Positions 29,841-57,517 of a stretch of 64,000 nt of DNA are shown here, piece after piece (the stretch's first letter is position 1; every line of letters starts with the position of its first letter). The notes beneath the pieces were generated by a model. It had not been told where the DNA came from, did no database searches, and worked only from the letters and a program-made list of their open reading frames with translations. This stretch comes from Labia minor (taxonomy: Eukaryota > Arthropoda > Insecta > Dermaptera > Spongiphoridae), in NCBI GenBank assembly GCA_963082975.1, contig OY720344.1, forward strand, positions 89,528,107-89,592,106, written 5' to 3'. The position numbers and the translations under genes were made by a program.

Positions 29841-31703
29841 AAATTTCCATTGTTGAATTTTAAAAGTGGTATATAATAATAAAAAATTATCATGCATCGA
29901 TTTTTATATATATATAGACGAAAGAAAATCATAAACTAATCTACAAATTTAGTATTGTGGAGGATTATAAAATTATTAGTGAAACTGAGGAAAATGAATG
30001 AAATATGATAAAATAATATTTATAAGGTGAATTTGTTGTTTGTAAATTGTTTAAAGTTATGAATGAAAAAAAAAAAATAGTAATAAAATTTTTCCAAAAA
30101 ATGTTATTTTTTGACAACCCTAAATTTATGGATATTTAGAAGATTTTGATTAACATAAGATATATCATTTAAGTCTTAAAAATAATAATATTAAATTTGA
30201 GCTCACATAGTTTATTGGTAATGATATGTTTTTTTAAATATATAAAACTCTTAATATCTCCAACCTCTAATATAATTTCATCACTTAAAATCTTTGCTAT
30301 ACACTCACCTATTTTGTTAGGATTTAGAATAATTTTAAATGAAGTATGTTTATAAAAAAAAAATTATATTTAATTATATCAAGGTTCACATGTTAAGGTT
30401 TCAATACCATAAAAGTATACTAATTATTGATTGAATTAACTTATTTAATCTTAATCAAATATTATATTTTTATAATCAATTTTTAAATTTAGAAAAAAAT
30501 CTAATGATATTGTACCATTAGAATATATATATATATATATATATAATCATTAACTCAAGAAAATTATACAAACTAGAGATTTAGTGAATCAACCTATAAA
30601 AATAATATTAAATAATAAATAAGTAATAGACATAGGTTATAAATATAACTGAATAATGATTTTATATTTAAGTAAAATTTATTAATTTATTTGACAAATT
30701 TAAAAATAGTTTATTATGGTTTAATATTTAACAAACTATTTTAAGAAGGATGAGTGAATATTTTATACTTCAAACGTCATTTGAATCATATGTTCAATAC
30801 AAACCTAACAATATTTGAAATTTCTATAATCTTAATTTTTTTTAATACATTTCGCCCTTTTATAGGTAATTAACTATATAAATTTAAATACCCATTACTT
30901 GTTTTACATTGTGATTTTGTATTTTACATATATATTTTGATTTCATTGATTGGTTATGATGAGTCGTGTTGGTATCATAAATCAATTTTGCAAACTGTTT
31001 TTGTAGACTGCTTCTAGAAGAAAGAACAATTTTTTTATATTTTATATATAAAATATGCTATATTTTTTTATTAAATAAATATAATCAAGCCGCAATTAAA
31101 AAGGTACATTACATTTTAATTTTATATTACTTCATTATTTTTTATATAATTTTTTATAAATATTCGAATGAGATATATATAAGCCATCTTCATTTAAGTT
31201 TTATTTATAATTTAAACAGTTTTATATTCTAATTTAAATTACTATTCAAAATAATATAAAGTATTTTAATCATTGTTCTTTTTGTTTAATATTTAGATAT
31301 ATAAATTAGGTTAGCTTTTAGACATTTATTCTTGTGTATACAATAGAAATGTCATTGTTTCTTTGTTTCCCTTAATTTTTTAAAGAAAATGATAATAAAA
31401 GAAATAATCTTAAAATAATTATTTAAATTTTGTTTATTATTATAGTTAATTAAAATAATTTATTAATACTATTGAAAACTTTAATTAAAAAAGTTCATCG
31501 TCTAGTAATATTATAACTATTATGGCACCTCACAAAAAATTAAATTTAATTATTATTTTAAATATTTTACTTGTTAAGTTACGATGACAGCTATTCTTTT
31601 AAAAATTTTATTTTAATTATATATTTATTAATTATAAAAGATGACAAATTTAAAATTTTTTAAGATATTTTATATATCAAATTATATTTCGTTTTTATAT
31701 TAA
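29841..31703. other. AT-rich stretch, probable Mats 5' flank and 5'-UTR intron
   Basis: No coding exon is visible. The stretch ends with TTAATTTCAG, a good splice acceptor a few bases before the Mats start codon. It therefore probably includes an intron in the 5' UTR and, somewhere, a non-coding first exon that I cannot place. Confidence 0.45.
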
Positions 31704-31719
31704 TTTCAGAATTGTCGAC

Positions 31720-32379
31720 ATGAGCTTTTTGTTTGGGAGCCGATCATCTAAGACCTTTAAGCCCAAGAAAAATATTCCAGAAGGAACTCACCAATATGAT
31801 TTAATGAAACATGCTTCAGCTACTCTAGGATCTGGAAATCTTCGATCTGCGGTCAGTTTACCTGATGGAGAAGATCTTAATGAATGGGTGGCTGTAAATA
31901 CAGTCGATTTCTTTAATCAGATCAATATGCTTTATGGCACTATTACTGAATTTTGTACAGAAGATTCCTGTGCAATAATGTCAGCTGGCCCTAAATATGA
32001 ATATCATTGGGCTGATGGGTGTACTGTTAAAAAACCTATTAAATGTTCTGCTCCCAAATATATAGATTATTTAATGACTTGGGTTCAAGATCAATTGGAT
32101 GATGAGACACTTTTCCCTTCAAAAATTGGGGTTCCATTTAAAAAGAATTTCTTATCGATTGCTAAAACTATCTTAAAGAGATTATTTCGAGTTTATGCTC
32201 ATATATATCATCAACATTTCACTGATGTTGTACAATTAGGTGAAGAGGCTCATCTTAATACATCATTCAAGCATTTTATTTTTTTTGTCCAGGAATTTAG
32301 TCTTATTGACAGACGAGAATTGGCTCCTCTTCAGGAATTGATAGATAAATTAACGGATAAAGATGAGCAGGTCCGATAA
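31720..32379 (+). CDS. mats: MOB kinase activator 1 (Mats)
   Basis: This is a 219-residue protein, almost colinear with human MOB1A/B (216). It starts MSFLFGSRSSKTFKPKKNIP. MOB1 binds and activates the NDR/LATS kinases in Hippo signalling. The zinc ligands Cys79, Cys84, His161 and His166 are all present, as are Thr12 and Thr35, the known Hippo/MST phosphosites. The NDR-binding face (EEAHLNTSFKHF, LIDRRELAPLQELI) is intact; the main change is a slightly longer C-terminus (DKDEQVR). The whole CDS is in one exon. A splice acceptor 10 bases upstream of the ATG points to a 5'-UTR intron, arguing against a processed retrocopy. Confidence 0.97.
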   Translation: MSFLFGSRSSKTFKPKKNIPEGTHQYDLMKHASATLGSGNLRSAVSLPDGEDLNEWVAVNTVDFFNQINMLYGTITEFCTEDSCAIMSAGPKYEYHWADGCTVKKPIKCSAPKYIDYLMTWVQDQLDDETLFPSKIGVPFKKNFLSIAKTILKRLFRVYAHIYHQHFTDVVQLGEEAHLNTSFKHFIFFVQEFSLIDRRELAPLQELIDKLTDKDEQVR

Positions 32380-33476: not shown

Positions 33477-36332
33477 TTATTTTGATCTAGTTTTTGTGGA
33501 TGTGGGCGTCATTGAACGTCTGGAATTGGCAACAAGGGGGCGAGAAATACTTGAAGACAGACTAGTCTCACTTGGCTAAAAAATAAAAGCAAGATAAAAA
33601 ATTTGTTAGAATATAACAGAAATTTCAAAAATTAAAAATTTATTTACCGCGGGAGATGGTCGAGGCATCGTAGAATCTCGTCGTTCAGGTAAAGCAGGAC
33701 TTTGATCTTTTTTGCTTCTTTCAACACTAAAATATATTTAATAAAATTTTATTTCAAGTCAAATATTTGGATCGAGAAAGGATATTTTAAAGAATTAGAA
33801 ATCAGAACTTATTAACAAACAACAAAATAATTTTAAGCAATCAAGAGAATATTTACTAATAAATTAGCAGCTACAGAAACAATTTCAAATAATTTTAATA
33901 TATCTATTAATGTAATAAAAATATACTAATACTTAATCTTTTTTAGTTATCGTTAAAAAGATTTTTCAGTACTTGAATCTTGTAAGTCATTAAGAAAATA
34001 TAAATAAATATTTTAGGAAATAAATCAGGAAAATAGAAAAAAAGTTATCATTTTAAAAAAAACAAAGGAATAAATAATATAAATTTAATAAATTATTAAA
34101 TTCATTACCTGCTACTTCGTGATCCACTTTTCTTAAATATGCCTGTAAGTTTTTCTTTTAAATCTTTTTTACTTCCTCTGTCTTCTGCATAACTTGCATC
34201 CGAATCATATCCCTAAAATAATTTTTTTAATTAGAAAAAATTCCTAATAAATAGAAATAAAATAATTGTAATACTTGGTATTCGCCTCCATGCGTTTCAT
34301 CTATACTCCTGGATTTTGTAAGTTTCTTTAATTTGCCTAACAGCCCTTTTTTCTTTTTCTTTTCAATTGGTACTTCACTTGTGGTAGATCCTCCAGAAAG
34401 ACGGCTATAATAAAAAGCAAAAAGAGAAAAGATGTATAAAAAAGTTCTTTAATATTTTTTTTATGATATAGTAATACAATTAGTATTATATTTAATTTAA
34501 TGTGAACAAATATTTAATTCCTGTGGCTAAAAAACTGCTAACTTTATCGCAATGAGGTTTAAAATTTCATTTTTAAAATAATTGATTTATCAAGATCTGA
34601 ATGGGTTTATCTTTTCTATAATTGAAGAGATATGAATTCAAAAGGTAATACCTGTCCATTGGAGATTCCTGTCTTCTTTGAAGTGAATAATACCGGTGAT
34701 CCATATCAGAACCTGTCGATTGAAGACTTGTTAAACTTCCATCTGTTTCTTCATCCTTCCAAATTCCCTAAAACATTTTAATTTTTATAATTATTATTAT
34801 TTATATTAATATTTTTAATAAATTCAATTATCGAATTCATACTCTCTCTGGCTTTTTATTTGTCTGCTCTAGAGATAACGACTTTCGATAAAGATTCCCA
34901 TCTTTATTTATTCCCCTCGTTTTTCCTTTTGTTTTATTATTCTTCACTTCTGTTGTGTCTGATTCTGTAGATGCGGCTCTGAAATTATCAAGATCAATTA
35001 ATATTAATTAAAAAATATAGATCAATTATTATTTACCTTCTTATTCCTGATCTCTTTGCTCTTTCACGATCACGTTCTTCTTCACTTAAACGCTGATATT
35101 TTCGCAATTCATCTGTTGCTTCTGTCAACCGTTGAACCGTAGCTTGGAGTTGGATTTTACGATCAACAGAGGATTCTATAAAATATAATTTAATTAATTT
35201 TTTATTTATTTAAATATTATAGATATCTCTAAACATAACAATCACATTTCTATTTATCTAAATCTGAGGTGAGCAATCCGCGGCCCGCTGAACAGATTTG
35301 TGCGGCACACTAAACATAATAGTACAATATCATTTTATTTTTGAGGGCCACTTATTTGCTATTAATTTAAATATATATTATAATAATCACTACAACAATG
35401 AAATGATTTTTAAGGCCTTGAAAGAGACATGAATTATGTCTATTATTCATTAAATATTTAACGTTTAATAATTTATAAAGTTTTGTTTTTGTTTGCGTTA
35501 TGAAAGTAAATGTTGAACTTTCGTTTCGTAATGAAAAACGATGCTCACCCCTGATCTAAATCGTTTTTCAAACATTTAGAGAAGAACATTTTACAATAAT
35601 CTATAAAAATACAGACATATTTTTTTAATATAATAAAACTATATTATTTAAGAGTTTTAATCATTAAATGAAATGATTTTAATATTTTTATAAATAGGTA
35701 ATTTCGGCAATCAATAATTAATTAAAAAATTATTAGTGATTGAATGCCAAAATTAAGTTCCCTTTTATTAAAAATATTTAATCTTTATATATTCCATATA
35801 GCGATAAAATCTAAAAGTTTTTAGTCAAAGACATTAAAACAAAATCAAACTTAATTTTTTTTGATTAAAAAAACTGTTTTTAATAAATTATGTAATTACA
35901 TTTATATATGGAAAAATTACAATATTATTTCTTTGCATGCCCATTAGTTAAAAAAAACATTTAAGTTTAATAAAATTTATTAAGATGATATATGCACATT
36001 CATCTATCTCATCTCTTATGTTTTGTTCCAATTAAGAGTATTAGTGAAATTTTATGAAAGTAAATTTTGTAAGTATCTATTATCTTACAAAATTGAAAAT
36101 TAATAATTACAATAAAAAGTTATTAAAATCATTTAAAGCAAACCAAATTAATTTTAAATTTATTTTTTATATTGGAAGAAAACAAATTTTTATATAAAGA
36201 AGTATATTTTCAATCCAAAAATTGGTTTAGTTAGATTTTATATCCATCAGGCATTCATTCTTTTTTTAGTTATGTACCTTTTACAAATTCTTTTCTCTCT
36301 AAACCGGGAGAAGATTCTCGAGATTTGGGTCC
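33477..36332 (-). CDS. Coiled-coil gene exons 31-38: basic Ser-rich tail
   Basis: The exons are 36278-36332, 35037-35175, 34843-34978, 34652-34767, 34275-34404, 34109-34212, 33648-33726 and 33477-33575. After a last short helix (VDRKIQLQATVQRLTEATDE) the tail is hydrophilic and basic. It has two similar modules, KKGLLGKLKKLTKSRSIDE and KKDLKEKLTGIFKKSGSRSS. It ends in a Ser/Pro/Arg-rich stretch finishing STKTRSK. A basic tail is consistent with microtubule or membrane binding, but that is inference. Nearly all of these exons are too short for ORF scans. Confidence 0.82.
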
Positions 36333-39300
36333 CTGCATTAAATATATATTTATTATTTAATTATACTATAACTATATCAAATACATAATATGTAGAATTA
36401 TATATATTAAATAAAGCTTTAACAAAATTTTAAATAATAAATTATAAATAAAGGATGTAATTATCAATAAATTTATTTAGTTTAATCTATTATTTGCTTT
36501 TGAGAAACTAACAGCCATGACATATTATGCTATCTGATAATATGAAATTTGTTAGTAACTTTTTAATTGATTCTTTATATAGGTAAATATAATTAATAAA
36601 AATAATAAATACCTTTAATCTTCTTGGTGGTGTAGGCGTAGATGGATCCGGGGGAGGTTTATTACGTTGTGGAAAGAGATCAGGTGCAAGTTTCATCAAT
36701 TCATCAATCTGCAAAGAATGAAAATTATTAGTATATATTAAAAAACTCTAATTCTTATATTTTGGCTGAACAAGGTTCTTGTTAAGTACATCTCTATTTT
36801 ACGTTTGTTACTTTTTAGAAAATAGATATATAAATAAAAATAAATGAAAGTTAACCTGGTTTAATATGGCGTTAATTTTTTTATCTTCTTCAAAATCAGC
36901 TCGTCTTCTTCCTTGAACAACTTGTCTGTATTCTTCTCGATCTTTATCATATCTTTCTCTTTCTCTTCTTAATTTTTCATTGGTTGTTCTCAATTTAGCA
37001 TGTGCATCTCTTAATTCTAAAAGATCACATTGTAATTCAGTTATTTTACGTTTGGTTTCCTCTTGTTCTTCTTCCGATTGTTTGCGAAGTTGCTCTTGAC
37101 GTCTCTTCGCTTCTAAACGCTCTTTATCGCGTTCTCTTTCAACCTAAGTTATATAAATAAAGAATATCAATTTTACGAAAAACATTAAATTTCAATAAGA
37201 ATTACCTCAAAAAGTGTTTGTCTAAGATCTCTGGCAAGTGTGGAAGTTTCCTGAAGTAGTCGATGTTGTTCTTCTCGTTCTTTATGCCATGCTAATTCCA
37301 TTCGAGTTCGCATTCCTGGAATTTTTGTCCGTCCACTTGCAACTATTCTGTCTTCTTCCAACTAAAAAAATATGATATAATTATAGTTAACAACTTATAT
37401 GCCCAGATATTTATTATATAAATAATCAAAAAGTCAATCAACTAGTTAACATGTGCTATTTATACAAAATTATCAACTTAAATATCTCTGAAGATGAATT
37501 TTTAAGATAATTATTTTGAAGATGTAGAATACTTACTTCATTAATATGACTTTGCATTTCAGAAAGCTTCACTTCCCAAGCAGAACGTTCAGAAACTAAT
37601 TCAGTTTTGAGCTTGGACGATTGGAGCCGTGCTTCACTTAATTCATCCTCCATACATGATACCTGTTGCTCGAGTGTAGCAATTTTCGTTCGAGTTTCCT
37701 CAGACTAAAGTAAACCAAACAATAGAGAATATTAAAATAATATTTTTATTAATTTTTAAATTGATAAAGACTTTTTAATAACCTCATCTGCGCTGATTGT
37801 ACCACTATCTCGTTTTGATCCACCAACTTGTGCTTTGAGATCTGCAATAGTTCGTTGAGCAGCCTCAGTCATATGTCTATAGGTATCACGTTCTTTTTTA
37901 AATCTTGATAACTGCACTTGTAAGGAATGCAATTCTTCTGAGATTAATGCGACACGACCATCGTATCGCAATTTTAAAGATGCAATTTCGCTTTTCTTCG
38001 ATTTTTCTTCCATTTCTAATCTGAAATTAAAGGAGATTAAAAAAAAAATAGAATAGCATTTTTAATAATTTAATAAAAATACTTGGCTTGTGCTTCACGT
38101 AATTCTTTTTCTACAGCCGATGTATCAGCACTAATATTCCTTTGGATTTTATTCACTTTATCATAATCTTCTAATTTTTTTCTAAGTTCTTCATTCTAAT
38201 AATAAATTAATTTATTATTATTTATATTAAAAACTTATAAATTATTAAATGATTTTTACTTCTCTTCTTATATGATTCATTTGATCTGAAAAACTATCTC
38301 TATCCCGTTTATATTGGTCAGCTTCAGCTCCTTTATCTTCTATAATTTTCTTCAAACGAATTCTTTCATTAGTCCAAGTATCAGTGTCAGTGAAATTTCT
38401 AGCTGCTTTTTCTTCTAATTCTTTCAAACGTTCCTAAAAAGTAATATTAAGAAAGTTACAATAAAACTAAAATGAAAATTATTAATAACTCAAATGTATT
38501 TTTATTATTTAAAAGTTATTTTTTGGGTTAACTTACATGTAAATCTAATTTTTCTTTAATCCACGAATCTTGTTTATTATTGTATGTATCCCTTAACGTT
38601 TTCAATTCTGTTTCAATTGATTTTAATTCTCTAGATGTTGTTAAATATTTCCTGTAAAAATATAAGAAATTAAATTTTAAAACATGCTTGTATTTTGAAT
38701 AAAAATATTAAAACATACTCTGTAACATTTTCTTTTTCCATTACTAGTTGAGCTTTTGTTACAACATGTTCCTCTTCTAACATTTCATATTTAGTTGTAA
38801 GGTCTTCATATTCTTGACGCTCTGATCTCAAATCATTTTCTAATTCTAAATAAAAAAAAAGGTAAAATTTATTGATTAAACATTTAAAGAAGAATATTAA
38901 TCTCAATTTCGCAGTATATTCTTACTTTCAATTTTATTATGTAATTCTTCTTGAATTTTCTTTGATGTCGTTGTACCTTCTGAGGATTTAAGTTTTGATT
39001 TTAAATGGGTTAATTCTTGTTCTTTGCTTGATAATTCTTTTTCGTGATTATTTTTAATTCGTTCAAGACGTTTACGTTCCGCCTTCAAAATGAAAATCAA
39101 TAGTTATTATTAAATTCTTTAATTAATTTTTCAAATTAGCCATTCGTAAAAACAAAAAATCCAAAGAGAGTTGATCTGCTTGAATGAAATAATTAGAGGG
39201 ACAATGAATTATTATAGTTCTTTATAAATGGAAAAGCAGCAAATGAAGATTGAAGAAGCAGGCTATACAAAAATTGAAAAATAATGGGTCTCAAAATGAA

Positions 39301-42300
39301 CAATAATAATAATAATAATAAAGGCAATAACAAGGGTTCAATATATATATATATATATAAAATATCAACAAGAAGCTGAGACCTGGACAGACTGAATAAT
39401 AAAAGACAGAAAAAAGAACAACTTGAGTTGAAATATTACTGAATATAAGTAATGTCTTTTATAGTATTTAGAAACAGATAATGAAAGTAATAGATAAGAA
39501 ATAACATCGATAAATATGTTAACAAAAATACAAGACATAATAATATCAACTTCATTGAGATATCAAAGATTTTGATGAAAATATGAAAGACTAAATGGAA
39601 AGGGTAATAAAGAAAGAAAGAAATTCAAAACCATTTGTTATGTAAATTATATAGCTAAAATCTACGACTACTACGCCAAAATACTAAAAAAAACAATATT
39701 TTATAATATCGTTATCTTAAAATACTGATAAAACCATGCCATCGTAAGAGATTCAATATTCTACCTTCACTCAATCAACCAACCAGTTTAACTTTTGTAT
39801 TTTACCTCTAAATCCATATCAACATCAGAAAGTTTTCGTTCAAGATATTCATTTTCTTTTCTAAGTGTATCTTCACTTTTCTTATGTTCAACTTCTTTTA
39901 CTTTTAGGGATTTTTCTGACTATATAAATTAAAACTTTGTAATCAAGCTCAAGACGTATATACATATAAACAAATAAAAAAGTTACCTGTTCTAACTCTT
40001 CTTTTAATTGTTCGAATTTGGTTTTCCAGGATGTTAGTTCTTCTTTTAATGACACTACTTCTTTACTTCCAGCAGTTATTGAATTAGAAACATTTGCTAC
40101 TTTTGAAACTGCTTCGGAGGAACGTTGCTTTTCTTCTTTCAAAGATGATTCCTAAGGAGATATTTACTATTAGTAATTTTAAATCATTATATATTTCTTA
40201 ATTATGTTTGTAATTATTTAGATTAATAATTTTTTGATTGATCATTTAATGTTTGTTTCAAAGTATTGGGAAACTTTCCAGTAGTTTTAAATTTAAAAAA
40301 ATCAATTTTTATATATTTTTAATTATTAATTAAGAGAGGAATTATTCATTATTATTCAATTTATCAAGTAATTTTATTAGTTATAAAAATAACAACAATA
40401 AAAGGGTTAGAAAATAGTAAAAAAAATATATGCCTTTTATTTACATTTTAAGAACAAAGTGCATTTATATATTAAAAAAATAGTAAATAAATTAAACAAT
40501 ATAGAATAAGAAAATATGACCATATCTTGAATATACCAATTTTTCAATTGACGTTTCTTTGGCTGCTACAGATGATTCTAATTCACTAATTCGAGTTTTA
40601 AGAGCATCTCTATCCTTTAACCACCCAGAAGAAAGTTCTTGATGAGAAGTCTCAATACGTTTATTTTTTTCTTTTTCCTCAGTTAGCTGATGATTTTTAT
40701 TTAGAAGAAAGAAAGAAATGAAATGAAGAAATAGAGAAAGAAAGAATAAAAATGAAAAAATAAGTAATAAGTAATAAGTAATAAAATAAAAAATTTAAAT
40801 TAGATTAGTTGCTCTTTTGAAGAAATTATTAAAATATTATATAAGAAAATTAAATAAAGATAATTATTTGAAAATAAAAATTAAAGAATAAAGAATGAAT
40901 TAAATAGATAAAATTTTAAAATTTCTTGAAATAAATCACCTCTTTTTCTGCTTTGGTCACTTTTGTTTTATTAAGAGCTAATTGTTTCTCTATTCGTTTA
41001 AGTTTTTCTTCTGTTTCAGTGAGACGTTTTGTTTGTTCTTGCCGAGCTTTTTCTTTTTCAGATTCATTCTTAGTAGCAGTTTCAAGTTGTTTTTTTAGAC
41101 TAGATGTTTGCCGGCGTTCTTCTTCAAGGTCCTTCTTAACAGATTCAAGTCTTTCAGAAGCTCCCAATAGTTCATCTCTTTTGGAAGATGCAGCCGCTAT
41201 TATAAAAGAAATATTTTTGATAATAGTTTTTATTAATTCTAGTTTAACTTAACGTAATATATACCTTTCTCTGAAGTCATTTTTTTAAGATCCTCTTCCA
41301 ATTTCTGTTTTTCTTTGTTAATTTTCTCCTTTTCTTCTTGTAATTTTAATTTCTCTTGTTCTACCTTTTTTCTTAAATCTTCTTGTTTCTTCAAATTTTC
41401 CTCCAATTGTTTTTTATCTTTATCATATTTTTCCTTATCATCTGTGGCTTTCTTTTTAGCTAAATAAAAACAAAAAATTAATTTCATTCAAATAGAATGT
41501 TTTGTTTGATTATTTACCTTCAGTTGATTGTTTTCCCTCTGTTTCTAATTTTTTCTTTTCACCTTCAAGTTCTTTTTCTATTTTAGTTAATTTATCTTTC
41601 GTATCTTTTAATTCTTTTTCTAATTTGTCAGTATTTGAATCTTTCACCTCTTTGTTCTCCTCTTTTACTTTATTCTTATTCGATTCTTGAGATTTTTTTA
41701 ATACAGTAAGAACATCACACATTTCTACTTCGAGATCTTCAACCATCCTTTTCAATTGTAATTTTGTTGTCATATCTGTAGGTCGTTTAGGGGTTCGTTT
41801 TTTATAAAAATCCGTTGCTGAACTAAGAGAATCATCTCGAATTCTTTTCAAAGTTTCTAATAATTTAACATTTTCAGACTCTATCTAAAAAAATCAATAA
41901 ATAACAAAATTTTTTTAAATAAAAAATATAATTTTTTCAATTAAATAAAATAATAGATTTTTGTATATACATGGTCTAGTATTTATTATTATTTTAGTTC
42001 AAATATTTCATAATAAACTTAATTCTATTCTCATATTATTAGATTTTGAAAAAATAAAAATAAGTTTTACTAGCTATAAGTAGTTCGTGAAATCATTAAA
42101 ATGTTTAATTATTCTCTATTTCACTAATTCTTTTGTATTTAAAAACATTGAAAAAATAACAAAAACAATAAAATTTTACGATCAGAAGATTAAAAACAAA
42201 TTATTAATATTTCAATAACAAAATTAAGCCAATCAATTTATAGGATGCCCTTAGTCAAAATTTTGGGCAATTATTGCTCAACTTTGTTAAACTTACAGAT

Positions 42301-45300
42301 CCTAGATGAGTGGCCTCAATTCTTTTGTTCTATATAAAGCATTAGAAAATGGCACTTTGCCAAAAATTAACAAGAATTGAATAGAGAAATTTAATTAATT
42401 ATTTGAAAGTCCTTGATTCATATTGTGACTTAGTTTAAAATTTATATGCATAATTATTTCCCTGACTATTACAATTACAAAATAAATATTATTAATGTGT
42501 AATAAGAGCAATTAAATATTTATTTTATTTTCATGAGAAAAAAAGTTGAAAAATGGGGAAGAACACATCTTTAATAAAAGTGAAATTTTTTCAAAAGTTT
42601 AACATATAGGCAAAGTAATTGGATAAGTCTACATAATTTCGAAATAATTCAAATCCAGTTTTGATTCAATAATTTAGAATTACTTAGTAGATAGTAAGAT
42701 TTAACTTTTGAGAGTAAAGAGACACTATTTTAAAAGGTAACGTTTTTTAATAGTACTTAATTTAAAATGGTATAAGATGTTTTTTAGAAATCTTTTAAGA
42801 TTTTTTAATATTTAATATGATTGCATCACATCACAATATTATTATTTAAATTAAATTTCATAATTATTTAAGTGAACTGATGATAAAATCTATACATCTG
42901 AAATTTTGTTTTATACACAAAATACATATATTATAAATATTTGACGGAAATTGTGCATATAAAATATTAATATTCTTATAAAAAAAAAATTTAATATTTA
43001 TGGAATATATAATATTAAAACTTACTTTAGTAAATGAAATTTTCATCTTATCGAAATCTTCTGTTTTGGTTTTAAAATCTTTTTTCAATTTAATAATATC
43101 AGCGGGTTCTTTAGTTACAGCATTAGAATTCTTTGTATCATTTTTTTCATTTTGACTTATCTTGTCTTTCAGTTCATTAATCTGAAAAAATATTATAATT
43201 TATTCGATAAGAAGAGAGAAATAGTTTAAGGTTTTATTTTTCAATCAATTATGAATGTTGTGGATATATCTATATATAATTATAATAAAAAACAACCGTG
43301 GAATATTCATATTTCTCTAAATTTCCTCAGCCTTCCATATCCTCCCATTACTACCACTTTTTATTTTAATGATCTTAGTTTAATAATTTAACCAAATTAT
43401 AAAATATCTCAAAAATTTAGATGAAAGGACTAATTTAGTGGTATCATGGATTCATATCTAATCATGCAATAAGATTTCCATCAAATTATTCCATAATGGA
43501 TTCTTTATAAAAACCTAATTTTAAGGATAAAAAAACGATGAAATTAAATGAATGTATTATACTAGAAAAATTTATTTAGTAATAATATTTAAAATTCTCA
43601 AATTTTCAATTTTATTAATATTTCATTTATTTTATTTGTAATTTTAACGTAGGCGTCCCATTCTAAAATTAATTTCGCCCAATAAGATCCATTGAATATA
43701 TGGACATAAAAAATAAATATTTAATTCCCATTAAATTATATTTTCTCGTTTTTATATCCATTTTCAAAAATCTATTCAAACCTTATTATTGGCTTCTGTA
43801 AGTTGCTCTTGGAGAGATGTGATTTTTTCTTTGTCAGCAGTTGTAGATGTTTTATTAGTAACACCTCGAGACAATTGCAACTTTTTATTTTCCGCCGTTA
43901 TTTTCTCATTTTCAGACTCGAGTTGTTGTGCTCGACTCCTTAAAACAGAGGCTTCTGATTCCATTAAAGTTAATTGACGTTTTAAATCCAAAGCTTGTTG
44001 TTCATTTCCACCATCAAGAGATCTAAATAAAAATTAAATTATCAAAGATTAAAAAAACATTTATCATTAATAAAATAATTTCTCACTTTGATTTTTGTAT
44101 TGCCGTTTTGCTGCGTTTTTGAGTTACTGCTAATTCAGCGTGTAATCGTTCACAATCTCGATCTTTTTCTATAAGTTTCTTTCTTAATTCTGAGAGTTCT
44201 TCTTCCAAAAGCTGAAACAAATATTAATTGTTTATGAATTTAATATAATATTTTTAATATTCTTAATTATTTAGTTAATATATTTTTGTAATATTTTTCT
44301 AATGAGATTTTATAATATGATTATGTAAAATTTTATTTAATTTTTTCATTGAAAAGTCTAAATTAACCAAAAATTAGAAAAATCATTTGATTGTGAAATT
44401 TTAGACCAAAAAAATCTTAATTTTGTTTATGATTTGTTATTTTTGTATTTTGTATAGACCAAACTAATAAAATTTAAAATATATTTTTATTCAAATATGC
44501 AGTTACTTATTATAACTTACTTTAATCTTTTGATCTTGAAGGGAATCATGATTGGTGGCAGAAGAAATAGAAGGCGAAAGAGATCTGCGTGTTAAAGGTT
44601 TCGCAGATAATTTATCTTGTAACTCTTTGTTTTTGCGTTTGAATGTTTCTCTTTCTTTTTCCAAGTCTTCAACTTTTCGTCGTAAAACGGCTGTTTCTTG
44701 TTCATTAAGCTCTAATTGTATTTTAAGTTCAGCCGCGTCTTCAATATCTGAAATACCTTCATCTTTTTCGACCGCTGGTTCAGGAGTTAATCTTGCTGGA
44801 CTTGGTGATTTTTTCCTACCTAGAGTAAACAAATATTATAAATAGAATATAATAACTATAATAAAATAATATAATAATAATAATAATAAATAATATGAGA
44901 TTATATTTATTTTAATTTAAAAAAAATCTTCAAAATTCAATAAAAATTATTTTTTTTATAATAAACTATACTCTCTCTTTACTTTTTATTTAGATAATTT
45001 AGATTAAGCTAAATTTTAAAATAAAAAAAAAGAATTTAAGAATAAAATTAAGAATTATTATTAGAGAATATATATATATATAAATCCCTGACTCTTCTTT
45101 TATTAATTAATAATTGAAAATAAAAGTTTCCCGAATAAAAAATACATTTTTGTAATGGATAAGAAAAAATATAAAATAATCTCGTCTAGGACAATTACAA
45201 ATTTAAAATAAATTGAACAACACAAGAAAAATAAAATAAAAGAATTATATGAATTATTAAAAAATTAAAATAGTTGCATGCAGAAATTTTGTTATTCAAA

Positions 45301-48300
45301 AAGTTAGTACCCCAGCCAGAAGAAAATGGCTGTCAAAATAAGGAAGAATAAATAAAAATAATTGAAAAAAATAAAAATTTATATTAGGCGCAAAATCAAC
45401 CCATTGCATTGGCGTGGACACAAAAAAAGATTTTTGTCAACTATCCTTGTCCTACGGGGTCTGACACTCTATTAATAGGTTACACTATAAAACGCGGGGT
45501 CACTATTTTTGGTTTGACGAAATATTTAAACAAAATTATCAATGACGTTCTAAATATATCTAGTCAACGAGCCATGTTTTTCATCAATGCATTGGGGGGT
45601 TAGGCTTTGACAAAGAAAAAAAAAGCAAGTTTTTTAGTAGAGGCGGGGGTCGGGAGGGGAAACAGTGCCCATGGCTCAAGTCCAATTTTTTTTTCGCAAG
45701 GGCAATATCTCATAAAATAAAATTCGCGACCTACTTCTAGCCTTGATAGCCATTTTCTTGAGCTGCAGAACAAGGGACTCGTTGTCCTCCTCGAAGCGAG
45801 AGGCTTTCCGTCGCAGTGTCTCGGCCTGCAACACCAGGTTGCCTCGGTCGGACTTATGCCCAAATATACTATACTAAAACTATGGTTATATTTTCTAATA
45901 TATACATATATTTTTTATATAAAAAGAGCACAAAAAAAAATTAGTTAAAAAAAATCGCAAGTCACATTAATATAGTATTCTCAAGAATATTTTAAAATAA
46001 ATTTTTAAATTTAAATCGAGGAATAAATTTAATAAATAATAAAATAAATTTCATAAATATCATTTTAGGACCATAGGTACCGGTAGATTCACCGAATCTA
46101 AAAAAAATAAAATTTAGTTTATAAATTTACTACTATAGTGTAGTTGATGAATATTTAAAAATAACAAATTTGGACTAAAAATATTGAAATAAAACACGAT
46201 CATTATCTTATACTATTCTTACTGATCACAATGAAAACAACAGGGTTGAAGTATATTTAAGAAAAATAAATTTTAATGATTTAATAATAAAAATATTTAA
46301 AATTGTTATTATATTTTTTTTAAATTGTGTTTAGAATAAAATTAATGAAAATATTTAATTGAAATATGTAAATTTCTTTGATATGATATTGGTATGATAT
46401 TTATATCTGGAATATTTTATTTTATTTATTTATTTTTAATGATATTTTTTCGAATAAAAGTAATTTTACATTTTCTAAAAGATTTTTTTAAACATGAATT
46501 TAAATAAATAAACAAATTTCTTTACAACCTCACAAAAGCAAATAAATACAGCAACGATGAATAAACATATTGGAATTTACGAGTAAATTAAAGCACCTAG
46601 CAGTGTAGCCATAGGCGATCCAGATGAGACAAGACTTCCTGCTGGAAAAACAGTAGAAAGCGAAAACTGCAAATGTCTCATAGAAAATGGTAACCAAAAT
46701 AGTCCTCCGGGAGTAAAGGAAGAGGAATCTTCTTTGGAAGATGTAGAACTAGATTTATCCAAATTATTTAATTCAAAATCATTTTCAGCAAACATTTCTA
46801 AAGTGGCTGATGTTTGTAATTCTTCAGCCAGTGCTTTATCAATACTGGAAGTCTCTTTCTTTTCCTCACTAGTTTCTTGTTTTACCTCTTTTGATTCAGA
46901 AACATTAACATTATGAATAAATAAGTCATTTACTATTGATTGTTCAACTGGTTGGACTTTTTCAGGTTTTATCATTTTCGATTCGGAGACATCATCTTTG
47001 TTAAATAATTCAGTTTGTGTTTCTTGTTCAATTGGTTTAAAATTTTCTAAATGAATGATAAATAATTCCTCATCTGTTTGAGTTGTTATATCAAATATTT
47101 CCAAAGAATCGGTTTGCAAAGCAATAGAAATCCTATTTGAAATTTTTAAATCATTTATCAAAAGGCTTGAATCAATTTGATTTATTGCTTCTTTTTCGAT
47201 TTGAAAGTCTGTTTGTATCGAAGAATCACAAAGATTAATTTCTTCTGTTTGTTGACCTACAGAGAGTCTTGACTGAGCGGTTGACACCGTTCGGGAAGAT
47301 CCTTTAGTTTCAACTATTAGAGGCCTTGATGACCACGCTCGATCTTCCACAAGGTGAAAGGTCTGTGTGGCTTTGGCCTGTCGTGATATCACAGATGTTG
47401 TTGATGAAATTAACCTTGCAATCTAAATTTATAGTATTGTTACTATTATTTTATTATTATAAATTATATTTAAATTTAATTCATTAAGAACGTAAAAATA
47501 TTAATAAGTTCTTTAAAGAAAGATTGTCAAACATTTTGATAATATTATCTCTCAATAAACCTAAATTTTTTTAATATCTTATTTCATTTATTAAATTATT
47601 TGATTATAAAATGACTCGATATTTGGAATCATATTTTTACAATACCTCCTTTAAAAAACTCTAGTATAATATTCAGCATATTTCATATAAAAATATTTAT
47701 AAAGAATAATATTTTAATATTTTGTAATTATAAATTATGCTGAATATGCATATAATATATAATAAAAAACATGAAAATCTTACTTCCTCCTCTGCAAATT
47801 TAAGTTGTTCACGCATGTCTGCTTCCCGTTCTAGTGAATCTTGTAGATCTCTCAGTAGCTGTTGTGGATCCTCTTGAGAGCCCCCCCGCATAGATTCTCG
47901 AGATATTTTTTCTCCACTTGATGTTCGACCAAGAGCTGATAACATTGGTGGTTTCTTTTTAGAGATTGGACCTTGATCTTTAGAAACTTGCTGTAAAGCC
48001 TCATCCCGAGCTTTTAATTTAACTGTAAGTTCTTCCAGATCTTTTTGAAGTCTTTTACCTACCTAAAAAATTTTATCTTGTTAATTGAAATTAATTGAAT
48101 AAATACCTAAATTAAATTAAATTCATAATTAAATAAATTTTAGAATTGGGCTCATGATTTTATTTCATTAACAAAATATTTATTTACCCTGAAGGTAATA
48201 ATATATTTATATATAATATATATAAATATGATATTTATAATAATTAATTATTAATATTTCTGATGAAGTAATCAATAATTATAAAAAATATTTTTAAAAG

Positions 48301-51300
48301 TATAGAGGTATAATTTAAATTAAAAATATTACAACAATAGGATAATGTTTTAAATTAATAACAAAATATAAATTTAGTGAAATATATCAAAGAGAAAATG
48401 AAGAAACTCACTTCATTTGCTAATGAAAGCTCTTTTTCTAAAGTTTTAATCCTTTCGACACTACTTGCTCCAGTTTGATGATTTTTTGCTTCTCGTTCTA
48501 ATTGTGCTTTTTCTGTCTCTAATTGTTCTGCCCTACGCTCGGATTTTCGTAATTTAAAAGATAAAACACGACAATTTTTATTTGTTTGTTCAAGTTCTTT
48601 TTTTAATGAGACATATTCGTCCGCCTGGTCTTCACGAAAATTGTCTTGCATTTCTTCGATTTCTTCTTCTAATTCGCGCATTTCTTTTTTCATATCTTCA
48701 TTTTCATCCATTAATTCTTCACATAGTTGTTCAGCAGCGGATAGTTTCGATCGTAATTCTTCAATAGATTTTTGAGTTACGTTTTTATCAGGTCTAGAAT
48801 CGAGTTCATCTTCAAGCTCTTTAACACGTAAAGATAAACTTCGTTTTTCATCTCGCATATCTTCCGTAGTAGTTTGTAACTCATTTACTTTTTGTTGTAA
48901 TTTTAAAACCTTAAAAATCAATATAATTACTATTATTATGTTAATATGTTATGATTAAAAGCGTAAATAAAATTCAAGATTATTTCCAACGAATTATAAA
49001 ATTATAAAGTTAAATAGTTGTAATAAAAATTATTTAACTATTTTTTAAAAATAAATTATTAAATAAAATAATTCTTTAGTTAAACATTTATTAATAAATT
49101 TATTTACCAATTTAGAATAAAACATGTAAAAGATCAAACGTTATGGTAAAGAATCTACATTAAAATAAAATTTGAAATTAAATTCAAATAAATAAAAAAA
49201 AAAAAAAAACACTAACATTTAGTCAACAATTTTATAATTGTATTTTAACAAAAATTGTTTTATATTTAATTAATAGAACAATTTAAATTTGACATAAGCA
49301 AAGTTAATGTTAATTAATAATTAAGTATTTAAAATTTTGACTAATTTATATTTGTAGAATTACTACATTAATAATTTATTTTATTAAAAATAAAATTTAA
49401 ATAAAGTTCTTTTTTAGATAAAATAATTGTTTCAACAATTTGAATTGTTATACTTCACGCTCTCCCTCTAGATCCACTAATGAATTATTTAATAATTTAA
49501 AATAAAAACTTTAATACCTCGGAAGCCGCAGTCTTGCTAGGTACTGTATCTAAAGCAGCAATTCGTCTTAATAAGATATCACTTTTTTCTCTTTCAGCTT
49601 TTTCACATCTCGCTTTTACAGTTTCTAATTCTGTTTTTAAACTTTCAATTTGTTCCTAAAATAAAATAAAATAAAGTATAAAACATTGTAAAGCTTAAAA
49701 AGATCTAGCCAAGCAGATATTATTAACCTTGGGGGTGTAACTCAGTGGTAGAGTGTCTGCTTCGCATGCTGAAAGTCCTGGGTTCAAATCCCAGCACCTC
49801 CAAAAATTTTTTTTATTTTAAATTAGAAAAAATAATTTTATACAATTGTGTATTTAGTTTGTAATATTTATTTTCAAATCAAAATAGTTAATTTTTATAA
49901 CTAATTTTATTTATTAAAGATATGAATAAAGATGAAGTTTATGTGATACTTTTTATTTTAATTTAAATATAAAAAAAATTTTTACATTTTTTTTCTAAAC
50001 TATATTATTTTTATTTTAATTTTAAAATACTTACTTGAAGTTCATGCTCGTTTCTATCAATAAGTGTTGTTTCAGTTGTTTCTGTTCCAGCCAAACTTGA
50101 TAGATCGTCATCTTCACAACTACTATCACTTGAACTAGAAGTTTTAGATTTATTTTTTGATTGTTTTACCTGAAACAAATTTTTACAATTTTTCCTACAA
50201 TAATTTATTATATAATATTACGATTAATTTTATAATTGATAACTTCTATGCATACTTTAAAACTTTATATTTTTTTTGATAATATTAAAATTACCTGTAA
50301 TATAAAATCAACTTCAGGATTCGATGGTTGTTCAATTGATCTGATTTCTTTAAACGCTTGAATTCTAACAGGACGTGTTTTGTTAGTGGAAGACGAAGTC
50401 GATGTAGTAGTGCTTTCTTTAGATTTTTTAACATCCTTATTTGGAGTCGTTTTTTCTGGACTTAAATTCCTCCTTCGAATTGTGGATTGAGAAGTGGTAT
50501 TTGTATTTATTCCTGTCGATGTTTTTGTAGATGATGTTGTTCGAGTATTGGAATTGGAGGGCGAAGTTGTAGTTGGCGTTTCATTCACTTTGGGGGTTGA
50601 AGAACGCCGTCTAAAAGTGTATTCAGTGGAATATGCTGAAGAATCTATAAAAAATAAAAAAAAAATACAAAGCAATAATTATTAATTAAATAATTTCAAA
50701 AAGTAAAGAAAATTTTTCAATATTGAAGAGTTTTTATTTTATTTGAACGCAAATTAATTAAAAAATTAATAATTTCTATAAATCAGCAACGGTGCATCTT
50801 TAAATATATACTTATATAACGTAAAACATAAAGGATTTTTGATCAAATCAATTTGTAAAAATGTTGAATGCTGATCTGACAATTTCTAATTTTAAAATTA
50901 ACAGTCATATATATCCAGATACATTGAAATCTTAATTAATTAGTTTGTATATACATCTGATATGATTAAAATTTTTCTATTAAAAAATTATAAAAAAAAA
51001 ATATGCACATATGTCATAAAACTACCTTTTTCTTTCTCTTTCTTTTCTAATTCCTTGATTTTTGAAGAAATTTCAGGTAGGGGTTGAGTTCGTCTTCTAG
51101 GTAATGTCAAAGAAACAGTTACTTCAGCAGACGTATCATCATTTAGATTTCCTAAATCTGGAGTAGATGTCCAAGAAGTAGCCGGTCGTGATGACCCAAA
51201 CCTATAATTAATATTTATTTACATTTACATATTTTTATATTCTAATCAATATATTTCTGATTATTATAATTATTTTTTTAAATAATTATTTATTATAAAT

Positions 51301-52816
51301 AAATAATATTAATAAAAAATATTTTTATAAAATTCTATGATTGATTATTTTTTTAAAATAAAATTTATTGTAGAAAGTAAGTTATTTTTAATAAAAAAAT
51401 AATATTAGTAAATTACAATCAGAATGGCGATGTGAATGTGTGACTCAGTAAAGTCAGTAAAAATAAACATTTGGATACTATCCATACACAATGTGATTTC
51501 AACTATTTCAAAACGAAGTTACTAGGTCATTTATTCAAGAAATATATTTACCTGGAGCTATTACTACTAAAGCCTGATGTATTAGTTGTAGTATCATCTG
51601 ACTTATTTGATGAACTTGAAGATGTAGAAGACGACCATCTTTCCACTGAAGACTCTCGACCTCTAAAAAGGAAAAATGTGACAAAATTGATAGTAATATA
51701 AATAATAATAAATAAAAAAAATCCCTTACTTTGACCATGATGAAAGATTGGGAGATGATACCGTGGTGTCTTCACGACGAAGGGAATTAGAATCATCTTT
51801 ACCTCTTCCACCGTGTTCCTTATAATCACTTTAAAAAATTCAAAATGTTAAATTTAAAATTTAAACTCAATTTCATTTTGGTGAAAAATATAATTAATTA
51901 AAAAATTCAAAAAATATTTATATTATTAGTTAAGACACTAAATTAAATAAATTATTATTTTAATTTTTGTTTTGTAAGTTTTATAATTATAATAAAGGTT
52001 ATAATATTAATATTATTGTTCCGACAATTATAAATTAATTAATAAAAGTTTTAATAATTGGGATTTATACAAATTTAAATTTATATAAACGCCAATATTA
52101 ATATTTGATTATATATTTTATTATAGTTATTAGAATTTATGTTAAGTTTTAATAAAATTGTTAAAATTTCAAATATAAAACAAGAGATCCTTTTTTGTCA
52201 ATAATGTTTGTTATTAGATCAACTTAATCCACATAAAATAGTATTCGCCTCATTTATTGAAAAGAAATCTCTCCTTCCTGAATATCAAAATAAATCGGCT
52301 TTAAACTTATTATTATTCTTAGTTTATAAACAAGTTCAATGATATATTTATATAATGATGGTTAAATGTGGTAAGCTATTTATTGTTTGTTTTCTACAAA
52401 CCATCTAAATCCAGTAGAAGAAAATAATAGCTGATATTTTTGGTAAAATAATGATTATTTTATATTTAAGAATTAATAATAATACATTTTTAAGACAAAA
52501 GTTAATTTAATTAAAATATTTATTTTTTAATCTATAGCTTTGATTTTTATTTAAGTATATGATCGATAATTATAGATTATTATAAACTAAATATTTTCTT
52601 GTTTAATTTATAGGCATATTTTTTATATATAAATATTATATACACATAACTTCAAGGGAATATCTTGACTAAATTTATATATATATTTATATATTAATCA
52701 TAATATTTATATAAATACCGGAAACATCTTTTACACCGAGTAGGCCATCGAACTTGAGGATGAAATCCCAAAGGGCAAAGGGGGTCCCCTTTGGCCATAG
52801 GATAGAGATGATGCAT
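33477..52816 (-). CDS. Large coiled-coil protein, MTCL/SOGA family-like (whole gene)
   Basis: I joined 38 coding exons over 19.3 kb. All boundaries are GT-AG and every phase agrees. The total of 7,269 nt gives 2,422 residues with the long exon 10, or 6,534 nt (2,177 residues) if the 91-nt alternative is used. The start is ATG 52816, preceded in frame by TGA; the stop is TAA 33477-33479. Order: a short Cys-containing N-terminal module, a Ser/Thr-rich region, a long heptad-rich coiled coil, a conserved distal coil, then a basic Ser-rich tail. The blocks EIEEMQDNFREDQADEY, NKNCRVLSFKLRKSERR and KTELVSERSAWEVKLSEMQS recall MTCL/SOGA microtubule-crosslinking proteins. I rely on memory for this; a different giant coiled-coil family is possible. 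Location and binding are inferred: cytoskeletal, microtubule-associated. Confidence 0.85.
35264..35553. mobile_element. hAT-type MITE, 290 bp, inside a coiled-coil gene intron
   Basis: It starts CTGAGGTGAGCA and ends TGCTCACCCCTG, an inverted repeat with one mismatch. It is flanked by the exact 8-bp duplication ATCTAAAT (35256-35263 and 35554-35561). It lies in the intron between exons 31 and 32, away from splice sites. There is no transposase. Confidence 0.88.
36613..37704 (-). CDS. Coiled-coil gene exons 27-30: conserved C-terminal coil
   Basis: The exons are 37537-37704, 37206-37361, 36856-37143 and 36613-36708. They encode KIATLEQQVSCMEDELSEAR, KTELVSERSAWEVKLSEMQS, MRTRMELAWHKEREEQHRLL, LRTTNEKLRRERERYDKDRE and IDELMKLAPDLFPQRNKPPP. 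This is the least degenerate, most family-specific part of the protein and the main basis for the MTCL/SOGA assignment. Confidence 0.87.
37783..40151 (-). CDS. Coiled-coil gene exons 19-26: distal coil
   Basis: The exons are 39987-40151, 39806-39919, 38926-39082, 38719-38845, 38537-38651, 38260-38433, 38083-38195 and 37783-38020. All encode continuous charged coiled coil. The last exon contains SLKLRYDGRVALISEELHSL, QVQLSRFKKERDTYRHM and AQRTIADLKAQVGG, a recognisable conserved-looking block. The intron 39083-39805 holds purine-rich sequence, an AAT triplet repeat and a TA run. Confidence 0.85.
40537..44819 (-). CDS. Coiled-coil gene exons 11-18: central coil
   Basis: The exons are 44521-44819, 44087-44211, 43782-44022, 43026-43181, 41518-41884, 41265-41459, 40940-41196 and 40537-40686. 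Exon 11 begins with a proline/serine hinge (RKKSPSPARLTPEP). The rest is strongly heptad-periodic and Lys/Glu-rich; the 41518 exon carries a basic hinge (YKKRTPKRPTDMTTKLQLKR). Introns are mostly short. The largest (41885-43025) is AT-rich with no recognised element. Each short open frame here is one exon of this gene plus intron read-through. Confidence 0.85.
45735..45825 (-). CDS. Alternative exon 10b (short): coiled-coil continuation
   Basis: Acceptor GGTGTTGCAG/GCCGAG and donor GCTAGAA/GTAGGT give 91 nt, phase 0 in and phase 1 out. The product AETLRRKASRFEEDNESLVL then QLKKMAIKAR runs directly from AEEE of exon 9 into SRKKSPSP of exon 11. It keeps the heptads and is what I would expect for the family. 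Base composition is strikingly different from the rest of the gene: codons such as GCC GAG, CTG CGA CGG and GAG GAC AAC are GC-ending. A GC-rich patch extends outside it (about 45395-45860). Confidence 0.75.
46597..47422 (-). CDS. Alternative exon 10 (long): 275-residue insert with seven QT motifs
   Basis: Acceptor ATAAATTTAG/ATTGC follows exon 9 in phase 0. Donor CTGCTAG/GTGCTT leaves phase 1, which fits exon 11 (reading MATLLGRKKSPSP). The exon is not heptad-like. It has QT motifs at exon residues 20, 58, 70, 103, 115, 136 and 203 (KATQTF, GQQTEE, SIQTDF, ALQTDS, TTQTDE, ETQTEL, ELQTSA). Several fit the TQT-type recognition motif of dynein light chain LC8. Reading through the donor gives a stop at 46577, so it could also serve as a terminal exon. 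It cannot be spliced with the 91-nt exon without breaking frame. Confidence 0.7.
47784..49655 (-). CDS. Coiled-coil gene exons 7-9: conserved SOGA-like coil
   Basis: The exons are 49518-49655, 48412-48909 and 47784-48062 (about residues 324-628). Exon 8 is a continuous coiled coil with CEELMDENEDMKKEMRELEE, MQDNFREDQADEY and NKNCRVLSFKLRKSERRAEQ. This is the part most like the SOGA domain (formerly DUF3166). Exon 9 adds the linker ISKKKPPMLSALGRTSSGEK and then the heptads LEREADMREQLKFAEEE. It ends in phase 0 at the alternative-exon choice. Confidence 0.85.
49731..49802 (+). tRNA. tRNA-Ala (anticodon CGC)
   Basis: This is a 72-nt cloverleaf. The acceptor stem GGGGGTG/CACCTCC includes a G3-U70 wobble, the alanine identity element. 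The D arm has ACTC/GAGT, the anticodon loop is TTCGCAT (CGC at 49763-49765), and the T arm is CTGGG-TTCAAAT-CCCAG. The discriminator is A and no CCA is encoded. A T run from 49806 can end Pol III transcription. The anticodon stem has one central U-U mismatch. The gene is antisense within the intron between exons 6 and 7 of the coiled-coil gene. Confidence 0.93.
50035..51828 (-). CDS. Coiled-coil gene exons 2-6: Ser/Thr-rich region
   Basis: The exons are 51730-51828, 51552-51662, 51026-51201, 50295-50644 and 50035-50169. The encoded stretch (about residues 33-323) is low-complexity and hydrophilic. It has a Ser run in SSSTSSSSSNKSDDTT, a proline/arginine patch LTLPRRRTQPLPEI, a Thr/Ser/Asn-rich block and an acidic Ser patch SSSSDSSCEDDDL. 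It looks disordered and rich in phosphorylation sites. Such a region commonly precedes the coil in cytoskeletal crosslinkers. Confidence 0.8.
52719..52816 (-). CDS. Coiled-coil gene exon 1: Cys-rich N-terminal module
   Basis: This first coding exon starts MHHLYPMAKGDPLCPLGFHP and continues through RWPTRCKRCFR. The codon for that last Arg is completed by exon 2, which starts DYKEHGGRGKDDS. The donor is CCG/GTATTT and the acceptor of exon 2 is TTTAAAG. Three cysteines (C-x13-C-x2-C) plus a histidine could bind a metal, but this is not a family I can name. The exon is about 890 bp upstream of exon 2 and would be missed by a simple ORF scan. In-frame TGA just upstream supports this start. Confidence 0.75.
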
Positions 52817-55674: not shown

Positions 55675-57517
55675 TTAATTATTTATCCTTCTAAGAGCTT
55701 GATTCACTTTAGATCTTGAAATTTGACCAAGAAATGAAGAAATAAAAGAACCGGCCTCGATTAAACGAGAAAGATCAACTCCTGTTGATACTCCTAATCC
55801 ATGTAGCATATACACAAGATCTTCAGTAGCAACATTACCAGTAGCACCTTTTGCATAAGGACATCCCCCGAGACCTGAGACTGAAGAATCAACTGTTGCA
55901 ATTCCCATCTGTAATACAAAACATATTGCATTAGATAATAAATCATAAATTAATTAAATAGTGCTATATTCATTTATATTTTATACCGATGATAATTTTA
56001 AATATAACAATTCAATTAGAAAATTAAATTATCTTTTAAATTAAGAGAAATAATTAATTACCTCTAGAGAAGTTAGAATATTTGCAAGGGCTTGTCCATA
56101 TGTGTCATGAAAATGCACTGCTAATTTTTTAACAGGAATATTTAACATGACTTCTTTGAGCATGGCACGACTAGAACCAGGAGTGCCTACACCGATTGTA
56201 TCTCCAAGACTAATTTCATAACAACCTAAATTCAAAAGTTTCTCAGAAACCTAAATTACCAGAAAAAAGAATCATATTTCAATATAAATATATAATTTTT
56301 AAATTAAGTTTTTATTATTTATTGAATTATTTTAAAAGTTTTACCTTTGCAACTGAACTTGGACTAATTTTCCCTTCATATGGGCATCCACATACACAAG
56401 AAACATATCCTCTTACCATCAAGCCAGCTTCAGTACTTTTGTTCATAATTTCTTCAACCCTAATAAATAAATAATAAATATATAATACTATTTATAAAGT
56501 AACATAACAAAAATATATTTTTTTTAAAATTTTTTAAATCAGAAATGTCAAGAAATAGAAAAAATAGTGGCGATTTCAAAATGAGGAAAACTAAAAAAAT
56601 AATTTCCAAAATTTTTTGAATAAATACTAAAAACGAATCTATGAATTTTTCTAAATATATTAAAAATATTTAGAAACATTAAATACTCTATTCTTTTTAC
56701 AAACAAAAAACCTGATAAAAATATTGATTATCTCAACCCTTCTTCCCAATTTTTAAATTCTTAGGTATATCCTAATTCGATCAATTTAGATTCGATAATT
56801 ATAAAATTATAATATACTTAACATGAACCTAAGATTATGAAAAAAACTTTAAATTTAATTTGTGAAAGGGAGATGAATTCAAGAAATTATATTAATAAGT
56901 TAGTGAAAGTGATTATTTATTATACCTAAATTTTATTTAAATAAAAATACCTTTTAAAAGATTCCTCAATGGAACAATTTGTATTTTTTTTAGAAAATGT
57001 TTCACTAGCTGCGACAAAAACAGCTACTTCTTGTGCCCCAACTTTAATCTATAAACCTTTTAAATGTAATTTTTTTTATAACTTAAGATTAATTCAATCT
57101 AACTTACCGCTGTTTCCAATCCTTTTATATTAGGGACTAAAACTGGATAATTAATGCTAGGCTTTTTCTTAATTCCCTGAAACACTTGAATGTTATCCGA
57201 TAATTGTGGAATCCATTTAGGTGAAACAAAACTTGTTGCTTCTATTGTTTTTAAGCCTGTTTCTGATAAAAGATTAATAAAATCGATTTTAATTTCAGCT
57301 GGAACTTGTTTAGGTTCATTTTGTAATCCATCCCGCGGTCCCACTTCAACGATTTTAATACATGGTGGATATTCAGGTTGATATTTCTAAAAAGAGTTAG
57401 TAAATTCATTAAAAAAATATTAATTAAATTATATAAACTCGAATTTACATGCAATTTGTCAAATGATCTTGATGATAATTGTCTTCGAAAAAATATATTC
57501 ATACTGTTACAAAGCAT
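55675..57517 (-). CDS. Hmgcl: Hydroxymethylglutaryl-CoA lyase, six exons
   Basis: The enzyme cleaves HMG-CoA to acetyl-CoA and acetoacetate in leucine breakdown and ketogenesis, in mitochondria. The exons are 57449-57517, 57108-57386, 56951-57048, 56345-56459, 56062-56250 and 55675-55908, giving 327 residues (human 325) with all phases consistent. The catalytic and metal residues fall at the human positions: Arg41-Asp42 ([10 protein letters not shown]), His233 and His235 (HFHDTYGQ) and Cys266 in [15 protein letters not shown]. The N-terminus is Arg/Ser-rich ([10 protein letters not shown]), as for a mitochondrial presequence. The C-terminus lacks the peroxisomal CKL signal of the human enzyme. 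Residue 234, Cys in human, is Phe. Confidence 0.96.

Follow-up and report, generated by a model that had tools for sequence, protein, structure and literature searches.

Within a SOGA/MTCL-like gene of the 64,000-nt window, the whole stretch of DNA analysed here, a candidate alternative exon encodes seven QT dipeptides whose clustering is not due to chance. Judging from its sequence, we consider it an evenly balanced proposition that this exon is an alternatively used module, adding a flexible multivalent docking segment for LC8 to a SOGA/MTCL-family crosslinker-like protein. The original prediction, a multivalent LC8 dock with seven sites, survives in part: the array is non-random, it resembles known multivalent clients, and the cognate LC8 is encoded in the same genome, but seven sites are too many; we would count three TQT sites as plausible and add one or two weak ones, perhaps three to five overall.

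The QT cluster and its host gene

The host gene was modelled without the QT exon and runs in frame to its stop (Table 1). Its spliced first 895 residues match Pfam SOGA (PF11365) at 46.5 bits against a cut-off of 31.1, with the best stretch at residues 811-890, and we therefore regard the gene as SOGA/MTCL-like, in agreement with the earlier suggestion of a microtubule-crosslinker-like gene; searched exon by exon, it gave two SOGA matches of 30.2 and 19.4 bits, under the same cut-off. In the 2177-residue model, the Pfam scan covered residues 1-895 and the C-terminal 573. Human MTCL1 presumably carries the Pfam SOGA domain as well. No orthologues emerged from a scan of viral contigs with exon 8 or of genome contigs with exon 28. 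When the QT exon was compared, as DNA and as protein, with its own genome (604 Mb in 71 contigs), the best candidates scored contained only the exon itself, so that neither a paralogous array nor an origin from a repeat family is indicated. Its best Pfam match, CReP_N (15 bits, E 0.012), lies under the cut-off of 25, and its best match in the PDB had an E value of 0.18.

Several other features were noted in the window. A tRNA-Ala (CGC) gene lies at 49730-49803 (+), antisense within an intron of the SOGA/MTCL-like gene, and a MOB1-like gene occupies a single open frame at 31654-32379 (+; Pfam Mob1_phocein, 7e-82). Also present are a rhodopsin-type GPCR exon at 9352-10107 (+; Pfam 7tm_1, 7.8e-19), a gag-type retroelement open frame at 21081-23021 (-) with a weak Pfam aspartyl protease match under the cut-off, and HMG-CoA lyase-like exons at 55675-57500 (-), recognised by eye.

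Translation of the minus strand from 47422 to 46577, a stop-to-stop frame of 281 residues, confirmed QT at exon residues 20, 58, 70, 103, 115, 136, and 203 in the sequence contexts first described. The first 236 residues were shuffled in 200,000 rounds, the excluded last 45 being free of QT. Against the seven QT present, the shuffles held 1.36 on average and reached at least seven in 14 rounds; the enrichment extends to [TIVLSM]QT (six versus 0.63, a count reached in 4 rounds), [TIVLSM]QT[DE] (four versus 0.12, reached in none), and TQT (three versus 0.11, reached in 14). Among dipeptides occurring at least four times in the exon, QT is the most over-represented (5.2-fold), and T follows 7 of the 16 Q in the first 236 residues versus 7 of 102 in the exon-less model (Fisher P 0.0004). 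The remaining 2177 residues, those of the gene model without the QT exon, contain neither TQT nor QT[DE].

Some of this enrichment may have a simple origin. The exon contains a 46-nt direct repeat (74% identity, spacing 84 nt), of which the copy at 47002-47047 includes site 6 (PIEQETQTELF...) and the copy at 46918-46963 (PVEQSIVNDLF...) is devoid of QT, and a second direct repeat of 24 nt (75% identity, spacing 57 nt) touches sites 5 and 6. The 46-nt repeats point to duplication as the source of part of the array. That the QT cluster as a whole merely reflects internal duplication within a linker that evolves fast, with no appreciable LC8 binding, is in our estimation unlikely: the repeats, the QT-less copy, and the four of seven anchors that are not TQT, with IQT and LQT having failed published tests, speak for it, whereas the enrichment reaches the +2 position, where D or E is found at five of the seven sites (P 0.003), and sites 1, 2, 3, 4, and 7 are covered by none of the direct repeats of at least 12 nt found in the exon.

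The TQ pairs embedded in the array could also be read as an S/TQ cluster for ATM/ATR-type kinases instead of LC8 sites. An S/TQ cluster domain is defined by at least three SQ or TQ within 100 residues; the exon has three TQ (residues 19, 114, and 135), but these are its only ones, SQ is absent, and their span is 117 residues, so that no such cluster is present. All three TQ, moreover, sit within TQT, and four more QT occur without TQ, which leaves this reading scarcely credible.

Table 1. Positions in the window of the host gene, the QT exon with its neighbours and alternative ends, and the seven QT sites
Feature	Position	Strand	Description
SOGA/MTCL-like gene	33477..52816	-	38-exon model omitting the QT exon; one frame of 2177 aa ending in a stop
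Exon 9, upstream neighbour	47784..48062	-	93 residues, with modelled helices spanning 2-29 and 66-92
QT exon	46597..47422	-	826 nt (275 codons and a further base); entered in phase 0, left in phase 1
Continued frame as far as a TAA stop when the 46597 donor goes unused	46577..46596	-	alternative last exon reading
Internal strong donor GAG|GTAAAA	last exon base 46886	-	score 10.0, phase 0; 179-aa in-frame cassette, six QT
Exon 10	45735..45825	-	91 nt, AETLRRK...; phases match QT exon; in-frame alternative
Exon 11	44521..44819	-	phase 1 in; in-frame junction with exon 10 or QT exon
Site 1 (residue 20)	47357..47380	-	QAKATQTF; TQT anchor, K at -3, F at +2; matrix 7.2
Site 2 (residue 58)	47243..47266	-	LSVGQQTE; QQT anchor, atypical; matrix 8.9
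Site 3 (residue 70)	47207..47230	-	CDSSIQTD; IQT anchor, D at -4 and +2; matrix 11.7
Site 4 (residue 103)	47108..47131	-	ISIALQTD; LQT anchor; matrix 2.6, judged fail
Site 5 (residue 115)	47072..47095	-	FDITTQTD; TQT anchor; matrix 11.3
Site 6 (residue 136)	47009..47032	-	IEQETQTE; TQT anchor; matrix 10.6
Site 7 (residue 203)	46808..46831	-	LAEELQTS; LQT anchor; matrix 3.0, judged fail

Splicing layout of the QT exon

The QT exon lies in the intron separating exons 9 and 10, and it matches exon 10 in both phases, an agreement expected by chance in one case in nine. Exon 9 joined to the QT exon and then to exon 11 gives an open frame, and adding exon 10 after the QT exon produces a stop; taken with the matching phases, this suggests a mutually exclusive choice between 30 coiled-coil residues and 275 flexible ones. 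The acceptor of the QT exon is ordinary (score 5.0, with 8 of the 37 in the gene lower) and its donor at 46597 is weak (2.5, with only 2 of 37 lower). The exon boundaries as first proposed are plausible, with the reservation that the 3' end depends on this weak donor. Three layouts are possible, in which the QT exon replaces exon 10, serves as an alternative last exon, or is used as a shorter cassette.

An alternative last exon would arise if the weak donor were skipped. No stop interrupts the frame before 46577, where the joined short form would also end, yielding an isoform of about 909 residues that would lack the SOGA domain and the rest of the C-terminal half and carry the QT array as its tail, an arrangement compatible with LC8 docking. 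We take this possibility seriously without favouring it, as it is opposed by the GC-rich stretch that ends near 46597 and by the agreement of both phases with exon 10.

For a shorter exon, the internal donor at 46886 is strong and fits exon 10 in phase, and the resulting cassette before exon 10 would likewise be compatible with LC8 docking. Coding potential, however, does not stop there. The minus-frame coding score is positive in all five segments of the exon and is highest, at 0.98 per codon, in the segment beyond this donor (46885-46721), and only 22 of 20,000 shuffles leave the interval 46580-46885 free of in-frame stops. This extension past 46886 disfavours the short cassette as the only form, and we consider the layout improbable. 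The full run of 281 open codons was reached by none of 5000 shuffles of the exon DNA.

The end of the exon is open in an antisense frame as well (46590-46920, plus strand; KAPSSVAIGDPDE...). The last 123 exon bases are strand-ambiguous, with coding scores per codon of 0.59 antisense versus 0.35 sense, and the next segment scores 0.27 antisense versus 0.98 sense. A gene antisense to the exon end, which would require further exons, was set aside by judgement. Exon 10 and its flanks (45640-45860) are GC-rich (0.54 in the exon and 0.67 at third positions) in a setting of about 23-27% GC. The GC-rich in-frame stretch extends upstream of the acceptor used for exon 10, and by eye the acceptor may lie 27 nt further upstream in the same phase.

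Disorder and LC8 motif scoring

The description of the segment as disordered-looking is borne out only in part. A single-sequence AlphaFold model of the QT exon is unfolded, with a mean pLDDT of 34.6, although such a model is a weak test. By composition, residues 1-236 are borderline (H 0.440 versus a Uversky bound of 0.444): residues 141-236 are clearly disordered (0.396 versus 0.454), residues 56-140 fall just under the bound (0.464 versus 0.472), and residues 1-55 lie on the ordered side (0.481 versus 0.446). Modelled in the same way, exon 9 has a mean pLDDT of 76.9, and its second helix runs up to the splice junction.

For motif scoring, we built an LC8 log-odds matrix from 27 published binders and tested it with 31 non-binders (leave-one-out AUC 0.88). 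The 8-mers were typed from published tables and passages, and re-runs used 25 binders, leaving out two consensus peptides. Left out before counting were four peptides annotated as weak, a weak ASCIZ peptide with TMT, one MUC4 duplicate, and 12 non-binder rows that lacked a clear anchor or were themselves shifted or duplicated. The analysis also made use of background frequencies and of hydropathy and disorder scales. The top five sites of the whole 2421-residue isoform all lie inside the QT exon, a result that held at pseudocounts of 4 and 10; with pseudocounts of 1 and 20, fifth place went to one peptide outside it. At a matrix score of at least 8, the exon has four sites versus a shuffle mean of 0.17 (0 of 3000 shuffles); at a minimum of 6 it has five versus 0.40 (0 of 3000), and at a minimum of 3 it has seven versus 1.53 (2 of 3000).

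Scoring of each QT site, which had been put forward as a check on the array, gave a mixed outcome. Five of the seven score at least 7.2, a level also reached by 16 of 31 published non-binders versus 26 of 27 binders, and sites 103 and 203, the lowest two, fail. The matrix remains permissive at 10.6 or more, where 8 of 31 non-binders are found versus 20 of 27 binders. A second score, contrasting binders with non-binders (leave-one-out AUC 0.79), places the seven sites between -1.2 and 1.6, with positive values only at 58, 70, and 115. As a putative positive control we used YAKQTQTV, which the genome encodes in its dynein intermediate chain, since the excerpted text of PMC5746249 names intermediate chains as the best-conserved LC8 clients. 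This peptide scores 7.8 with the matrix and -4.5 with the second score, and with the QT sites so close to zero the latter decides nothing.

TQT occurs only at residues 20, 115, and 136, and in the published LC8 peptide table none of three IQT peptides bound and the sole LQT peptide, from PLK1, was non-binding; it is for these reasons that we consider a count of seven too high. A CCL25 peptide with TQTF also showed no LC8 binding in published tests.

Two features of a multivalent LC8 client are in place, namely two or more TQT-type anchors (the exon has three) and a cognate LC8 in the same genome. The latter is encoded by two exons on contig C2, and the joined protein is identical at 89 of 89 residues to PDB 1rhw, a solved LC8. 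The same contig holds a second Dynein_light match of 60.5 bits (G000:C2:485422-485583), a divergent LC8-like chain.

A putative docking mechanism and known LC8 clients

Human MTCL1 is described in part of PMC5546597 as a parallel coiled-coil dimer along its length, and by analogy we infer that the protein studied here would also form a parallel dimer. Exon 9, which ends in a helix in the single-sequence model, would provide a coiled coil leading into the QT segment, and in a parallel arrangement a pair of QT segments would therefore emerge from it next to each other. This would be the geometry in which LC8 dimers bind as staples, and they could then link the paired segments into a ladder. The likeliest docking points would be the TQT sites at 20, 115, and 136, aided by avidity, with 70 and 58 as possible weaker additions and 103 and 203 probably non-binding. 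If the QT exon replaces exon 10, as the phases would allow, 30 coiled-coil residues would be swapped for an LC8-stapled flexible segment with the frame intact; use as an alternative last exon or as a shorter cassette would leave the docking mechanism unchanged. The main role of LC8 would be to hold two chains together as a dimerising staple, and less to connect them with the dynein motor, a view of LC8 taken in the abstract of PMC3078936.

More speculatively, splicing might act as a switch between a continuous coiled coil (exon 10) and an LC8-stapled flexible ladder (QT exon), with LC8 docking independent of the vertebrate MTCL1 motif. We offer this proposal tentatively and regard it as doubtful in its full form. 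If true, exon choice would set the LC8 occupancy of a microtubule crosslinker, converting a rod into a stapled, adjustable hinge. Independent LC8 docking in the same family would also suggest that regulation of these crosslinkers by LC8 recurs, and docking in SOGA/MTCL proteins would go back further, or have appeared more often, than the reported restriction of the motif to vertebrates implies.

The closest likeness for the array is with Drosophila and human ASCIZ, Chica, and Nup159, which share with the exon several TQT-type motifs joined by variable linkers in a single segment. Sites 5 (FDITTQTD) and 6 (IEQETQTE) resemble Drosophila ASCIZ peptides with LDMETQTE (14 µM) and RDIETQTP (7 µM). 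Individual Drosophila ASCIZ peptides bind LC8 at 7-20 µM, apart from one whose affinity was below measurement; the entire segment nevertheless takes up seven LC8 dimers per two chains, and LC8-binding peptides gain 80-fold or more once dimerised, as stated in part of PMC3078936; weak single sites are therefore no obstacle in principle. The exon differs from these clients in having three TQT anchors with the others IQT, QQT or LQT, in its coiled-coil, cytoskeletal-type host, and in the placement of the array on one candidate alternative exon. The distances from Q to Q among sites 20, 70, 115, and 136 are 50, 45, and 21 residues, exceeding most ASCIZ linkers. Long spacing in ASCIZ leads to heterogeneous, less cooperative complexes (PMC10046861, in part), and by these rules the exon would be expected to form loose, heterogeneous complexes unless the coiled coil keeps the two strands in register.

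Splicing-controlled docking beside a coiled coil has a precedent of its own in exon B of myosin Va. We take this exon to be short, with one LC8 site, and to belong to a motor protein, whereas the QT exon has 275 residues and several candidate sites. Syntaphilin has a single LC8 site. Going by two titles cited in PMC3995210, exon B is an alternatively spliced exon beside a coiled coil that confers binding of LC8 (DYNLL2). According to the excerpted text of that paper, the LC8 site adjoins a coiled coil in Swallow, where it is single, and in syntaphilin, and LC8 makes the coiled coil, or the dimer it forms, more stable (PMC3995210). Both are unrelated to the protein described here.

Human MTCL1 is the nearest comparison by family. 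The original prediction professed no knowledge of an LC8 link among vertebrate MTCL/SOGA proteins; human MTCL1 is in fact already treated as a known LC8 partner in the excerpted text of PMC5746249, and among the literature matches listed it appears beside LC8 or dynein light chain in that paper and in PMC4057234. The two proteins share the family by Pfam SOGA, a coiled-coil dimer (known for MTCL1, predicted here), and LC8 as an established or candidate partner. They differ in that the MTCL1 motif is reported in the same excerpt as not conserved beyond vertebrates (PMC5746249), whereas gene content and an AT-rich genome suggest a non-vertebrate animal here, and in that the excerpted sources mention no array or alternative exon for MTCL1. 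Literature searches for invertebrate MTCL, or for LC8 with alternative exons, gave nothing usable among the matches listed. Set beside ASCIZ, myosin Va, and MTCL1, the union of a candidate LC8 array, a candidate alternative exon, and an MTCL/SOGA-like gene appears to be a new combination within the literature searched.
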